A stretch of 11,634 nt of DNA, taken from a bacterium. Its GTDB lineage: Bacteria > T1Sed10-126. The notes under the pieces were generated by a model. It ran no database searches, was not told where the DNA came from, and saw nothing but the letters and a program-made list of their open reading frames with translations. Shown here one piece after another: positions 3,183-11,526 of this stretch. The number at the start of each line of letters is the position of its first letter. Position 1 is the first letter of the stretch. The position numbers and the translations under genes were made by a program. The stretch spans positions 1-11,634 of the forward strand of contig PWHN01000054.1 of NCBI GenBank assembly GCA_003554945.1. The letters are read 5' to 3'.

Positions 3183-3249
3183 AATCTGTGGTCCAAAACA
3201 TCGGGCTAAAAGCTAAAAGCCCAAAGCTCAAAGCTAAATCCACTTTTTT
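3183..3249 (+). repeat. Composite intergenic repeat, copy 1 (AATCTGTGGTCC / GCTAAAAGC)
   Basis: AATCTGTGGTCCAAAA is followed by alternating GCTAAAAGC/CAAAGCTC runs ending in ATCCACTTT. Positions 3205-3246 match 4005-4046 at 40 of 42 bases. The AATCTGTGGTCCAAAA part recurs at 4328-4343. A diverged reverse-complement copy of the AGC/AAAG part lies at 5481-5520. Confidence 0.8.
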
Positions 3250-3342
3250 AATTCATATCACCTGATCTCTCGTCCATCACAACCCTTTCACTTCGGGGTG
3301 AAAATGATATACCATGTTTCTACACTGTTTTGCTGTCATTTT

Positions 3343-3371
3343 TTGACTTACAAGCTTTCTTAATTTATACT
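3343..3371 (+). promoter_or_regulatory. Sigma-70-type promoter of the rightward TA operon
   Basis: TTGACT (3343-3348), a 17-base spacer, then TATACT (3366-3371) lie 54 bases before the antitoxin ATG. Both boxes are near consensus. Confidence 0.7.
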
Positions 3372-3425
3372 ATAGACGAAGGATATAAAACATCCATTAA
3401 ATCTAACAATCGGAAGGAAAAATTA

Positions 3426-3650
3426 ATGAATTCTGCCCACCCCTCTATATTTGATTTGAGTTCCTCGGAAAAGCTACAGCTCGTTGAAGATCTGTGGGAC
3501 GACCTGGCGTCTTCCCCTGAAGAGATTCCAGTGCGAGAATGGCAAAAAAAGGAGCTCAATCGTCGGAAAGAAAATTTTGAGAAAGGTTCCTCAAGCGTTC
3601 TTTCCTGGGAAAAAGTAAAGCAGAACGTACACAAACAATACCATCGCTGA
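3426..3650 (+). CDS. Addiction-module antitoxin component (short helical family)
   Basis: 74 residues. The signature SSSEKLQLVEDLWDDLAS, followed by REWQKKELNRR about 20 residues later, is typical of the small 'putative addiction module component' antitoxins (TIGR02574-type) that pair with RelE/ParE toxins. These bind and neutralise the toxin and usually repress the operon. The start at ATG 3426 is favoured over the longer open frame because AAGGA lies just upstream and the family sequence begins here. It is directly followed by, and by homology slightly overlaps, the toxin coding region (3643 onward), so the two are a translationally coupled pair. Promoter at 3343-3371. Confidence 0.8.
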   Translation: MNSAHPSIFDLSSSEKLQLVEDLWDDLASSPEEIPVREWQKKELNRRKENFEKGSSSVLSWEKVKQNVHKQYHR

Positions 3651-3681
3651 TCTTATTTTTACTCCTGAGTCTCAAAAAGAT

Positions 3682-3927
3682 TTGGCGGAAGCCTATGCAT
3701 GGTACGAAGATCAAAAAGTTGGTCTCGGTGAAGAATTTTTAAGATGCATTGAGGCTAATGTAAATACCATCCGGCGATTCCCTGAAATGCACGAAGTTAA
3801 ATTTAAAAAATTTCGGCGTGGATTAGTGCGCCGATTTCCCTATGGGGTTTTCTACGAATACAACAGCGGAGAAAATAGAGTGATAATTTATGGGATATTT
3901 CATAACGCAGAGAATCCTAAAAAATGA
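3682..3927 (+). CDS. RelE/ParE-type toxin, possibly decaying
   Basis: 81 residues from TTG 3682. The sequence AEAYAWYEDQ, then GEEFLRCIEAN, RRFPEMHEV, VRRFPYGVFYEY and a closing HNAENPKK is characteristic of plasmid-stabilisation/RelE-ParE toxins, which block translation or gyrase. Recognisable family sequence (ADLIFTPESQKD) continues upstream in frame to the ATC codon at 3643, exactly where these proteins normally begin, but no ATG/GTG/TTG is present there. The protein also ends at TGA 3925-3927, where the family usually has a Trp; reading through would add residues WRERLT and then stop. So either a rare ATC/ATT start is used, or the gene has lost its start and its last residues. TTG 3682 would remove the first beta strand. 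Confidence 0.7.
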   Translation: MAEAYAWYEDQKVGLGEEFLRCIEANVNTIRRFPEMHEVKFKKFRRGLVRRFPYGVFYEYNSGENRVIIYGIFHNAENPKK

Positions 3928-4003
3928 CGCGAACGATTAACCTAAGATAATCCCCACCGCGGGTCGGAGTTATCGATTGTCATTCCGCCTCCCACAAAAC
4001 TTC

Positions 4004-4047
4004 AGCTAAAAGCTAAAAGCCAAAAGCTCAAAGCTGAATCCACTTTC
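4004..4047 (+). repeat. Composite intergenic repeat, copy 2 (GCTAAAAGC runs)
   Basis: A direct repeat of 3205-3246 (40 of 42 bases identical at 4005-4046). The two copies bracket the whole 3343-3927 TA operon in the same orientation. Confidence 0.85.
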
Positions 4048-4332: not shown

Positions 4333-4373
4333 TGGTCCAAAAGTTCAGCTAAAAGTTGAAAGTGAATTTTCAG

Positions 4374-4781
4374 CTACAGCAAGTTAACCGTAACCTCCGT
4401 AACCGGTTCAAAATCAGAATCACCGGTAACAAATTTATCACAGCAAGCCATGACAGCGGTAGCAAGATGAATTGCATCGCCGTATGACATTTCCAATTTC
4501 CCCGGCGCATAATACTTCCCTCTTAACCTCGCCGCCCTGCGAGCCACCGAAGAAGTTACGGGTAGAACCGTTAAATTATCAAGTGCTTCAATATAATGAA
4601 TTATCTGCTTTGCTGTCTCTGAAGAAACTTTTTGTCTTAACCGGTATTGAACTTCAAGCAGGGTAATAGCAGATATTACCGCCGGCTCAGAGTTTAATGC
4701 TTCCAGATATTCTCCGGCTTTTTGAGCTTTTTCATCACTGGCAAAAAATTCTATCCAGACCCAGGAGTCTAAATAAATCAT
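4374..4781 (-). CDS. vapC: VapC-type PIN-domain toxin ribonuclease
   Basis: 135 residues, full length for a PIN toxin. It begins MIYLDSWVWIEFF, with the first acidic residue at D5; then E43 in LLEVQYRL, D102 in SYGDAIHLATA, and D121/D123 in VTGDSDF. These are the metal-binding acidic positions of PIN nucleases, which cleave tRNA or rRNA when freed from antitoxin. The ATG at 4781 directly abuts the antitoxin stop (4782-4784) with no gap, indicating translational coupling in a bicistronic operon. All catalytic residues are present, so it looks active. It is transcribed from the promoter at 5074-5102. Confidence 0.9.
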   Translation of the reverse strand: MIYLDSWVWIEFFASDEKAQKAGEYLEALNSEPAVISAITLLEVQYRLRQKVSSETAKQIIHYIEALDNLTVLPVTSSVARRAARLRGKYYAPGKLEMSYGDAIHLATAVMACCDKFVTGDSDFEPVTEVTVNLL

Positions 4782-5030
4782 TCAATTAAACTTTTCCCAG
4801 GCTTCGCCTGCAGATTTCTTCATCTGCTCAATTTCCTGGCGCGAAAATTTTACCTCATTGCGCATTTTTTTTAGTTCCGTCAGGGGATCACTGGAAAGCG
4901 GATACATCAAAGTTCTCTGCCCTTCCACCTCAAATAGAACTTCCTTCCCCTTCTTCAGCCCCAACTTCTCACGAATTTCTTTGGGGATGGTCACCTGACC
5001 TTTACTGGTTATCCGGGCAATTTTATTCAC
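4782..5030 (-). CDS. vapB: AbrB/MazE-type (swapped-hairpin) antitoxin of the VapC toxin
   Basis: 82 residues. The N-terminus (ARITSKGQVTIPKEIREKLG, about residues 5-24) is the SpoVT/AbrB swapped-hairpin DNA-binding fold. The C-terminal half (about 45-82, Lys/Glu-rich, ending SAGEAWEKFN) would be the toxin-binding tail. The start is GTG 5030, fixed by AGGAGG eight bases upstream. First gene of the vapBC operon, transcribed leftward. The family represses its own promoter, alone or with the toxin; no clear operator palindrome was found, although the promoter itself is strong. Confidence 0.9.
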   Translation of the reverse strand: MNKIARITSKGQVTIPKEIREKLGLKKGKEVLFEVEGQRTLMYPLSSDPLTELKKMRNEVKFSRQEIEQMKKSAGEAWEKFN

Positions 5031-5222: not shown

Positions 5223-5282
5223 ACAGTCGAGCATGCGAGAAGCGAAGGTGCGAAAAGCGAATGAGCGAGAAGCGGAGAGCAA
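5223..5282 (+). repeat. GCGA-core array
   Basis: GCGA (or GCGG) cores at 5235, 5242, 5250, 5257, 5265 and 5272, so a 7-8 base period. Preceded by G-rich sequence from about 5172. Same family as 2757-2865 and 5518-5562. Confidence 0.75.
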
Positions 5283-5345
5283 GATCAAGGGCGTGAATCA
5301 AAGTCAAAATCGAAGAAACACAAAGGCGCGAAGTAAGTTCATAAA

Positions 5346-5408
5346 GCGGGGCGCGGGGCGCAGGGAGAAAAACCTATGATGGGGTGATGGGGAGATGGGG
5401 CGAGTGGG
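5346..5408 (+). repeat. G-run repeat (GATGGGGA units)
   Basis: GGGGCGCGGGGCGCAGGG is followed by GATGGGGTGATGGGGAGAT-type units, giving four G3-4 runs within 5381-5408. It is purine-rich on the plus strand and has quadruplex-forming potential. Confidence 0.65.
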
Positions 5409-5480
5409 AGAAAGGTCGTGACCTGTAATCGAAAACATTTGAAAATCTTTAAACCGAAAGCCTGATGGAAAGCGGGGTTT

Positions 5481-5520
5481 GCTTTCAGCTTTTTGCTTTG
5501 GGCTTTCAGCTGAAGTTTTG
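5481..5520 (-). repeat. Reverse-complement copy of the AGCTAAAAGC/CAAAGC repeat
   Basis: On the minus strand it reads AACTTCAGCTGAAAGCCC and then CAAAGC/AAAAGCTG runs, related to 3204-3249 and 4004-4047. It runs directly into the GCGA array at 5518-5562. Confidence 0.7.
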
Positions 5521-5562
5521 CGAGGAGCGAATGAGCGAAGCGGCGAGGAGCGAAGGGGCGCC
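5518..5562 (+). repeat. GCGA-core array
   Basis: GCGA cores at 5520, 5527, 5535, 5543 and 5550. Same family as the arrays at 2757-2865 and 5223-5282. Confidence 0.7.
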
Positions 5563-6157: not shown

Positions 6158-6186
6158 TGGATTGCGGGTCAAGCCCGCAATGACGA
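6158..6186 (+). repeat. ATTGCGGG palindromic (REP-like) element
   Basis: ATGG, ATTGCGGG (6161-6168), 5-base loop, CCCGCAAT (6174-6181), GACG. The 8-bp arms are perfect. Read on the minus strand it has the same GTCATT-stem-stem-AATCC order as 5876-5969. Confidence 0.8.
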
Positions 6187-6204
6187 TCTTTAGTTCAAGA
6201 CCAC

Positions 6205-6302: not shown

Positions 6303-6341
6303 ATGGATAGCGGATCGGAGTCCGCGATGACGACCGGTAGG
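6303..6341 (+). repeat. REP-like palindromic element with CGGTAGG tail
   Basis: ATGGATAGCGGA, loop, TCCGCGATGACGACCGGTAGG. A diverged copy of the elements at 6158-6186 and 10602-10643; the ATGACGANCGGTAGG tail is shared with the latter. Confidence 0.75.
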
Positions 6342-6430
6342 ACAAACCCAGGAATGACATACGTTTTCGTAATGATAGTGAAAACGCTAGACAATTACTA
6401 AGATTTCAATTCCAATCTCATGGGGCACTC

Positions 6431-7224: not shown

Positions 7225-7239
7225 CTTCTCACCCTCATA

Positions 7240-7298
7240 GTGTCAGAGTTAAACTTTAAACTTTAGCTTTTGGGTCAGAGTTAAACTTTAAACTTTAG
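7240..7298 (+). repeat. RAYT-flanking repeat, two left copies
   Basis: Two 27-base copies (7240-7266 and 7272-7298) share TCAGAGTTAAAC and end AAACTTTAG; they differ at one base (GTGTC against GGGTC). The TAA stop of the transposase (7297-7295) lies inside the second copy. They fill the space between the transposase and the small membrane protein gene. Confidence 0.85.
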
Positions 7299-8224
7299 CC
7301 CCACTTCCCCAAAAATTTCTTCATTTTTTGAGATTTGTCGGATTGTTTAAATTTTCTGATCCCTTTACTCACAGCCGTTGGTGACATTTCAAAAATTTCG
7401 GCTATCTCGGTTACTGATAAATGTGCCCTGATTTTAAGCAGGTAGAAAGCTAAAAAACGGATTCTACTATGTCTCTGGTCACGCTTGGTCTCAATCAAAT
7501 CTTCTAATTCCGCAAATCCCCAATAATCGCAGATTTCGTCAAGAATAATCGACGGCGAAATGGGACCGCCTCGATCAGCGGTTCCCCGACGGGGCCTATC
7601 CAATTGAGCCAACACATTTTCAAGAAAATCTTCATCTCCTATAACCTTTACCCGCCGCGCCTCAAGTCTGCCCTGCTCAATTTTCTGCTGCGCTGTGGTG
7701 TTATTTTTTAGAAGATTAAATAATTCTTCCAACTCAACTTCCAGTCTATTTAGCAGTGCTGGCCAGTCAACTACAGGCTCCTCGTATTCCGCTTCACTTA
7801 TCGAAGTCCAGGAATGGACCACTTGTCCTTCCCCAGTCAAACCGGCTCTTTGCGGGTTTGTCAGGATATAGATAATCAGAGTTTTGAAATACTTTTCGCT
7901 TGAAACCAACTCCGAAAAATACCTCCTTTCAACTTGATGACCGGTAAAACCATGTTTTTGATTGAAATAACGGGCATATTCAGACTCAACAGCCTGCATA
8001 AAATCAGATAACCGTCCCTCGTCGGATTCCAGTGCTATATGAAAGTGGCTATCCATAAGAGCATACGCGTAAATTGTTATTCCATATTCAGCAACATAGC
8101 GACGTAAATATTCACGAAATATTGCGCGATCGCTTTCATCATAAAAATAGTTGTGTTCTTTTGCACCACGGTTGCTGACGTGGTGAATAGCACCAGGATA
8201 ATCTATCCTTAAAGGACGTGGCAT
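7295..8224 (-). CDS. REP-associated tyrosine transposase (Y1/IS200-like HUH nuclease) with DnaA domain IV-like C-terminus
   Basis: 309 residues. The start MPRPLRIDYPGAIHHVSNRG, then IYAYALMDSHFHIALE with the HUH motif H60-F61-H62, and EYARYFNQKHGFTGH with candidate catalytic Tyr83/Tyr86, are typical of RAYT proteins. These nick single-stranded palindromic REP DNA through a 5'-phosphotyrosine link. Classic RAYTs are shorter; here a C-terminal extension (about 245-300: FLAFYLLKIRAHLSVTEIAE, then MSPTAVSKGIRKF) resembles the helix-turn-helix of DnaA domain IV and may give sequence-specific binding. ATG 8224 is chosen because AGGTGAT lies five bases upstream. The gene is divergent from the helicase, and the flanking repeats are likely partners of this enzyme. 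Confidence 0.85.
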   Translation of the reverse strand: MPRPLRIDYPGAIHHVSNRGAKEHNYFYDESDRAIFREYLRRYVAEYGITIYAYALMDSHFHIALESDEGRLSDFMQAVESEYARYFNQKHGFTGHQVERRYFSELVSSEKYFKTLIIYILTNPQRAGLTGEGQVVHSWTSISEAEYEEPVVDWPALLNRLEVELEELFNLLKNNTTAQQKIEQGRLEARRVKVIGDEDFLENVLAQLDRPRRGTADRGGPISPSIILDEICDYWGFAELEDLIETKRDQRHSRIRFLAFYLLKIRAHLSVTEIAEIFEMSPTAVSKGIRKFKQSDKSQKMKKFLGKWG

Positions 8225-8255
8225 TTTTATCACCTATGTTAAAATATTTGCAGGT

Positions 8256-8332
8256 GCTAAAGTTTAGCTCTGGCACTCTTAAGTTTAAAGTTTAACTCTG
8301 ACACTTGCAAGTTTAAAGTTTAACTCTGACAC
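8256..8332 (-). repeat. RAYT-flanking repeat, three inverted right copies
   Basis: Copies at 8278-8304 and 8307-8332 read AAGTTTAAAGTTTAACTCTG then ACAC, the reverse complement of the left copies. A third (8256-8276) lacks one internal AAGTTTA unit and has a TGGCAC end. They occupy the region between the divergent transposase and helicase genes, ending 11 bases before the helicase ribosome-binding site. Confidence 0.85.
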
Positions 8333-8354
8333 TTTCAAGCTTGAGGTAGATATA

Positions 8355-10601: not shown

Positions 10602-10643
10602 ATGGATTGCGGGTCGTTGCCCGCAATGACGAGCGGTAGGTCA
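10602..10643 (+). repeat. REP-like palindrome downstream of the helicase
   Basis: ATTGCGGG (10606-10613), 6-base loop, CCCGCAAT (10620-10627), then GACGAGCGGTAGG. It is the third copy of the family at 6158-6186 and 6303-6341. It lies 13 bases after the helicase stop and could act as a transcript end or mRNA-stabilising hairpin, though there is no U-tract. Confidence 0.8.
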
Positions 10644-10670
10644 AAATGAAGTTCAAGTTCCCCCCTCACC

Positions 10671-10793
10671 TGTATCCTCTCCCTCGGAGGGGAGAGGAAA
10701 TAAATCTAAAACGCTTGTACCTTCTCCCTCGGAGGGGAGAGGAGATAAATCGAAAGCGCTGTATCTTCTCCCTCCCGGGGAGAGGAATTAAAT
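10671..10793 (+). repeat. Three tandem 45-base hairpin repeats between convergent genes
   Basis: Unit one 10671-10715, unit two 10716-10760, and a shortened third from 10760. Each contains the inverted repeat CTCTCCC/GGGGAGAG (or close variant) followed by AAATAAAT-like sequence. They lie just beyond the cysC stop and downstream of the helicase, so they may act as bidirectional terminators; this is inferred. Confidence 0.75.
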
Positions 10794-11408: not shown

Positions 11409-11430
11409 TATTAAAACTCCTGTTTAGAAA

Positions 11431-11526
11431 GTTGAAAAGTTAAAAAGTTAAAAAGTTAGAAAGTTAGAAAGTTAAAAAGTTAGAAAGTTAAAAAGTTAGA
11501 AAGTTGCAAAGTGGTAAAGTTTAAAA
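11431..11526 (+). repeat. Tandem octamer array upstream of cysC
   Basis: Twelve consecutive 8-base units of the form GTTARAAA (GTTAAAAA, GTTAGAAA, then GTTGCAAA, GTGGTAAA and GTTTAAAA at the right end). The array begins 22 bases from the cysC ATG, so it occupies the expected promoter/leader of cysC. Confidence 0.9.

Follow-up and report, generated by a model that had tools for sequence, protein, structure and literature searches.

The window analyzed here, the whole stretch of 11,634 nucleotides of contig PWHN01000054.1 (bacterium T1Sed10-126), carries at 7239-8333 a transposase gene together with five copies of a 25-nt repeat. This unit is probably an insertion sequence-like element of the TIRYT type, whose ends would be read in two parts by a catalytic HUH domain and a C-terminal DnaA-like domain. 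In the mechanism suggested by the sequence comparisons described below, the HUH domain would read the tip GGGGTCAG with the one or two bases that follow it, and Y119 would cut one strand at this tip. The DnaA domain IV-like helix-turn-helix (HTH) would read two tandem 7-bp words located inward of the tip (TTAAACT TTAAACT in this element), with greater stringency for the first word, and these words would probably be bound as double-stranded DNA. Solo arrays of the repeat dispersed through the genome may be by-products of element activity.

Organization of the element

The repeat copies form terminal inverted repeats (TIRs) on either side of the gene. The left outer copy (7239-7263, forward strand, AGTGTCAGAGTTAAACTTTAAACTT) consists of the tip and two TTAAACT words, and is followed head-to-tail, with a 32-nt period, by the left inner copy (7271-7295, forward strand). 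On the right, three copies lie on the reverse strand: the outer one (8309-8333) is 100% complementary to 7239-7263, the middle one (8281-8305) follows with a 28-nt period, and the inner one (8253-8277), located upstream of the start codon, is degenerate (GCCAGAGCTAAACTTTA). The 25-nt arms, 100% complementary over a span of 1045 nt, reach a score of 25, as against a score of 13 reached once in 237 shuffled flanks. The end sequence of the window element reads AGTGTCAGAG TTAAACT TTAAACT T, and its tips are AGTGTCAG and TGGGTCAG, in keeping with the GGGGWSAS often seen in TIRs of the TIRYTs; GGGGTCAG is the tip found in the dispersed genomic copies. An Rfam scan of the window gave no match.

The transposase is encoded on the reverse strand (7295-8224) as a protein of 309 residues with an ATG start (MPRPLR...); an alternative GTG start at 8233 (open reading frame (ORF) 7295-8233) would give 312 residues. 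Its stop codon (TTA on the forward strand, 7295-7297) starts at the inner end of the left inner copy. Numbered from the MPRPLR start, the catalytic residues are H60-F61-H62 and Y119, of which H60-x-H62 and Y119 are invariant across an alignment of 59 rows. The protein matches Pfam Y1_Tnp (E 1.7e-9) and NCBIfam REP_Tyr_transpos (2.4e-14, under the curated cutoff of that family). A first-pass annotation of this DNA had described a Y1 HUH transposase flanked by two repeat copies at one end and by three inverted ones at the other, with the stop codon inside one copy; the coordinates, the overlap at 7295-7297 and the Pfam match confirm this layout.

The same annotation had proposed that the tail resembles DnaA domain IV, and profile searches agreed. 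The DnaA domain IV-like HTH (7298-7561, reverse strand, residues ~222-309) includes a recognition helix at residues ~282-294 and the covarying residues S281, P282, and K287 discussed below. Residues 226-291 match Pfam Bac_DnaA_C with an E value of 1.4e-7 and 31.9 bits, barely over the curated cutoff of 31.5. Among 59 relatives, 19/59 match Bac_DnaA_C, and others match HTH_23/38/28. Comparison of a profile of these 59 relatives with solved structures retrieved both DnaA (2hcb, 1l8q, 3pvp, 1j1v) and TnpAREP (4er8).

In the AlphaFold2 model of the transposase (mean pLDDT 88.6), residues 1-183 superpose on TnpAREP 4er8 (Z 15.6, 155 residues, 2.6 Å) and residues 222-309 on the box-bound DnaA domain IV of 1j1v (Z 12.8, 87/94 residues, root-mean-square deviation 1.9 Å). 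Both the profile and the predicted fold identify the C-terminal domain as a complete DnaA domain IV. The recognition helix 282-294 is equivalent to DnaA helix 434-451, also in a sequence alignment with Aquifex DnaA. This DnaA helix enters the DNA major groove (PMC5742627).

Ends of related elements

The relatives comprised 237 genes from 192 genomes and 80 named contigs, including paralogs in the same genomes; phylum searches around genomes G040, G167, and G015 covered few genomes. A TIR score of at least 13 was found in 188/220 relatives with full flanks, and in 1/237 shuffled downstream flanks. Typically, a relative carries TIRs of ~25 bp made of the conserved tip GGGGTCAG, a short RYCT, and two tandem 7-bp words. 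In the end logo, positions 2-7 (GGGTCA) are near invariant, followed by RYCT and then by the variable words; variation between elements is greatest at positions 14, 16, 21, and 23, and position 12 never changes. The tandem arrangement is visible as an identity of base p with base p+7 at a rate of 0.518 versus 0.411 in permuted pairs (z 11). Elsewhere in the 3-11 range, offset 8 gave z 3.2, offset 5 gave z 2.0, and the remainder stayed below 1.3. The family also includes subfamilies whose words repeat with periods of 8 and 9 bp. Extra head-to-tail ends, spaced by 28-38 nt, are also present at other elements.

Analysis of single-strand folding revealed a median z of 0.05 over 158 ends and a z of 0.0 for the window repeat; two E. 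coli REPs used as controls gave -5.0 and -3.7.

Genome G040 contains 12 paralogs of the family (L155, L164, L173, L181-L236), the other 11 being 49-63% identical to L155. The paralogs examined differ in their end words and form a natural set for studying orthogonality.

Covariation between the transposase and its ends

Covariation was analyzed on 143 elements in canonical register, by comparing 294 protein columns with 26 end positions (7644 pairs). By mutual information, the pairs of base 14 with residue 281 and with residue 287 rank first and second, respectively. The residue-base pairing pattern is chemically sensible: K287 is paired with G14 (27/29) and E287 with C14 (5/5), Y282 with T13 (54.5/60), and A284 with A15 (58/59), while R77 is paired with G9 (54.5/63) and Q77 with A9 (27/39).

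As a control for common descent, a tree was derived from the protein without its HTH, changes were mapped on it by parsimony, and branch-wise correlations were calculated after removing branch length, the p value being the permutation p of the maximum over columns. In the helix, co-change was detected between base 14 and S281 (0/2000), base 14 and K287 (0.009), and base 13 and P282 (0.005). In the catalytic domain, base 9 changed with Q77 (0/2000) and base 8 with P4 (0.0005). A distance test separated the two parts of the end. Bases 13-16 gave a partial value of 0.25 with the recognition helix (permutation maximum 0.085) and 0.10 with the catalytic domain; for bases 9-11 it was 0.345 with the catalytic domain and 0.12 with the helix, the latter within chance (maximum 0.15). 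In nearest-neighbour prediction of the bases, the recognition helix outperformed the catalytic domain, with a modest gain over the majority base at position 14 (0.56 versus 0.39) and position 13 (0.68 versus 0.61), and no gain at position 15 (0.65 versus 0.71). Recognition of the repeats by the DnaA-like tail, which the first-pass annotation had put forward as a possibility, is thus statistically supported by covariation with the recognition helix across these relatives.

A repressor would equally predict coupling between an HTH and its repeats, and the roughly 110 bp preceding the start codon contain three of the copies. The repeats could then be operators that the HTH binds to repress the transposase gene and neighbouring genes, and contribute little or nothing to transposition. 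We regard this as unlikely: the ends flank the gene on both sides in nearly all relatives, marking the edges of a conserved unit, and the catalytic domain covaries with the tip, for which an operator has no need.

For the family as a whole, we lean towards a similar division, in which the catalytic domain would read the conserved tip and the DnaA-derived domain would read two element-specific 7-bp words through a simple residue-base correspondence (at the second variable base, for example, Lys-G and Glu-C). Paralogs sharing a genome would thereby keep separate, non-crossing sets of ends.

Several points weigh against a two-part reading of the ends and against its application to the window element. 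First, the second word couples weakly (partial value 0.086 versus a permutation maximum of 0.083). Secondly, the coupled pairs P4-base 8 and P211-bases 9-10 are not evident contacts. Thirdly, many pairs were tested, and the p value corrects for the number of columns but leaves the 19 end positions uncorrected. The window copy is itself divergent, its identity to full-length matches from other genomes not exceeding 33%, and there is no evidence that it has a target-site duplication, an empty site, or a polymorphic insertion. Its K287 faces A14 rather than the usual G, and its F61 faces T11 rather than C. Because of these two mismatches, the spacer may be one base short, shifting the register by one. 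The copy conforms to the Q77-A9 and A284-A15 trends.

Mobility and dispersed copies

Near-identical relatives span ~0.92-1.05 kb and end at or near the GGGG tips. Three of them, in three genomes (L037, L240, and L246), are 87-89% identical over 1044-1045 bp, with unrelated flanks beyond or near the tips. Within single genomes, the pairs L270/L297 (88%) and L301/L306 (84%) likewise share sequence as far as the tips or close to them, beyond which the flanks are unrelated. Since near-identical elements occur in unrelated flanks, the unit appears to be mobile, in the manner of an insertion sequence. No target-site duplication beyond chance was found in 156 elements, and a search for a shared flank motif returned a weak A/T preference and nothing else.

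The host genome contains six diverse RAYT genes, none of them recent duplicates. Together with the lack of target-site duplication enrichment, this would fit an immobile relic or a domesticated gene, with ends that are inherited leftovers and head-to-tail arrays produced by slippage or recombination. Such an origin seems improbable, since the ORF is intact with its catalytic motif, two distinct end families are scattered through the host genome, and relatives of 84-89% identity occupy different flanks, twice inside one genome. One of these end families belongs to a host paralog on contig C16, whose own end, CCTCGGAGGTTGAAAGTTTGAAA, has five exact copies elsewhere in the genome.

Searching the 2.2-Mb genome for the exact 22-mer core of the window repeat revealed 13 copies, 4 at the window element and 9 at five other places: two each on contigs C1, C58, C100, and C120, and one on C53. 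The pairs are direct-orientation doublets; the C53 copy is single and lies by the contig end, beside a microsatellite. Looser, degenerate copies occur in the middle of C58, on C29, and on C4. No inverted pair of the repeat was seen among these other genomic copies. Double-stranded sites seem likelier than a panhandle between the two ends of one strand, because head-to-tail solo arrays would be unable to form one. On viral contigs there was no copy of the repeat and, in a single-sequence search, no relative of the protein.

The arrays on C58 (L004), C120 (L012), and C100 (L010) adjoin the 3′ ends of ORFs, and on C58 and C120 the TAA within the repeat (GAGTTAA) apparently serves as the stop codon, in frame, for the ORF upstream. 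On C4 (L367, about 1466-1525), solo ends of the paralogs L016 (GGGACGGAGGTGTCGATTGTC...) and L017 (CCTCGGAGGTTGAAAG...) adjoin.

The first-pass annotation had proposed that the unit is a REP/RAYT system with the AT-rich repeats as its cognate substrate, and had anticipated dispersed copies in inverted pairs. In the classical form of such a system, a stable RAYT domesticated by the host would mobilize AT-rich REPs in the form of single-stranded hairpins (REPINs). The catalytic fold is indeed that of 4er8, and the repeat does have dispersed extra copies. However, nine exact outside copies are few, the doublets are all head-to-tail, the repeats have no hairpin potential, the ends are TIRs in most relatives, and whole elements lie in unrelated flanks; we therefore consider this origin very improbable. 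The candidate REP hairpin itself was ruled out by the folding and by the orientation of the copies. The AT-rich repeats stand as the element's own ends, and dispersed copies do exist, but the repeats lack the REP hairpin, their copies are direct doublets or singles, never inverted pairs, and the REP/RAYT label is not supported for a unit whose relatives behave like an insertion sequence.

Relation to known systems

TIRYTs were named by Di Nocera et al. 2013 (PMC3733652). They are RAYT-like genes flanked by TIRs, of which many carry GGGGWSAS and some form moderately abundant dispersed families with single, dimeric, or grouped members. The description covers 26 genes (number per PMC6006769). Quentin et al. 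2018 placed most TIRYTs in TnpAREP subclass 2.1, with Bac_DnaA_C or HTH tails and no REPs (PMC6006769). This subclass, RAYT group 1, is the largest and is present in 14.9% of strains; the same article assigns it no substrate and leaves the role of the DnaA-like tail open. By its domains and ends, the window element belongs to this described family (RAYT group 1 / TnpAREP subclass 2.1.2 / TIRYT). The tail, which the first-pass annotation had considered an unusual DNA-recognition module, is present as proposed, but such tails were already described for the subclass.

The window element resembles the TIRYTs/TIRtrons of PMC3733652 in that its Y1 RAYT-like gene is flanked by long TIRs with no relation to REPs, and GGGGTCAG fits GGGGWSAS; the tandem 7-bp words and the protein part that would read them are absent from the available excerpts of that description, and the window doublets are head-to-tail. 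It shares with TnpAREP subclass 2.1.2 of PMC6006769, which Bertels et al. 2017 call RAYT group 1, the core, the length class, the C-terminal Bac_DnaA_C or HTH_23/28 tail, and the absence of a REP beside the gene. The E. coli TnpAREP (4er8, RAYT group 2, GTAG REPs) has the same catalytic fold and also a short conserved tip motif (GTAG versus GTCAG), but it reads a single-stranded hairpin and has no DnaA-like domain. REP/RAYT systems of groups 2-3 (REPtrons) have REP palindromes flanking the gene and dispersed inverted pairs (REPIN/BIME), neither of which is found here. With the IS200/IS605 TnpA proteins (IS608, ISDra2), the element would share HUH-Y1 chemistry and shares the lack of target-site duplication; those systems have subterminal hairpins instead of TIRs and no C-terminal HTH. 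The tail resembles box-bound DnaA domain IV (1j1v) in its fold over 87 residues and in having an equivalent recognition helix, but the DnaA box (TTATNCACA) differs from the words in the ends of these elements, which vary from one element to another.

In the open-licence literature, outside which most subscription journals lie, GGGGTCAG ends with words are not described, one article connects Y1_Tnp with Bac_DnaA_C, and nothing later on the role of the tail was found. The link between residues of the recognition helix and bases makes this role directly testable by binding assays, and the family may illustrate how a domain of a replication initiator has been reused to target specific elements' ends.

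Other repeats in the window

Interspersed repeat families of the GCGAGGAGCGAA and GCTAAAAGCTAAAAGCC types occupy 2765-2886 and 5234-5558, and 3195-3246, 3995-4046, and 4338-4362. They surround two toxin-antitoxin pairs, one ParE-like (3330-3927) and one PIN/MazE-like (4374-5030). A dispersed family, GCCCGCAATGACGA, is found in intergenic positions at 6173-6198, 6320-6345, and 10619-10644, and contig C1 has a similar sequence close to its repeats. At 10671-10790, a palindromic CTCTCCCTC(G/C)..GGGGAGAGG element occurs three times in succession. Finally, about a dozen head-to-tail 8-mers of the TTAGAAAG type (11424-11520) adjoin an APS kinase gene.
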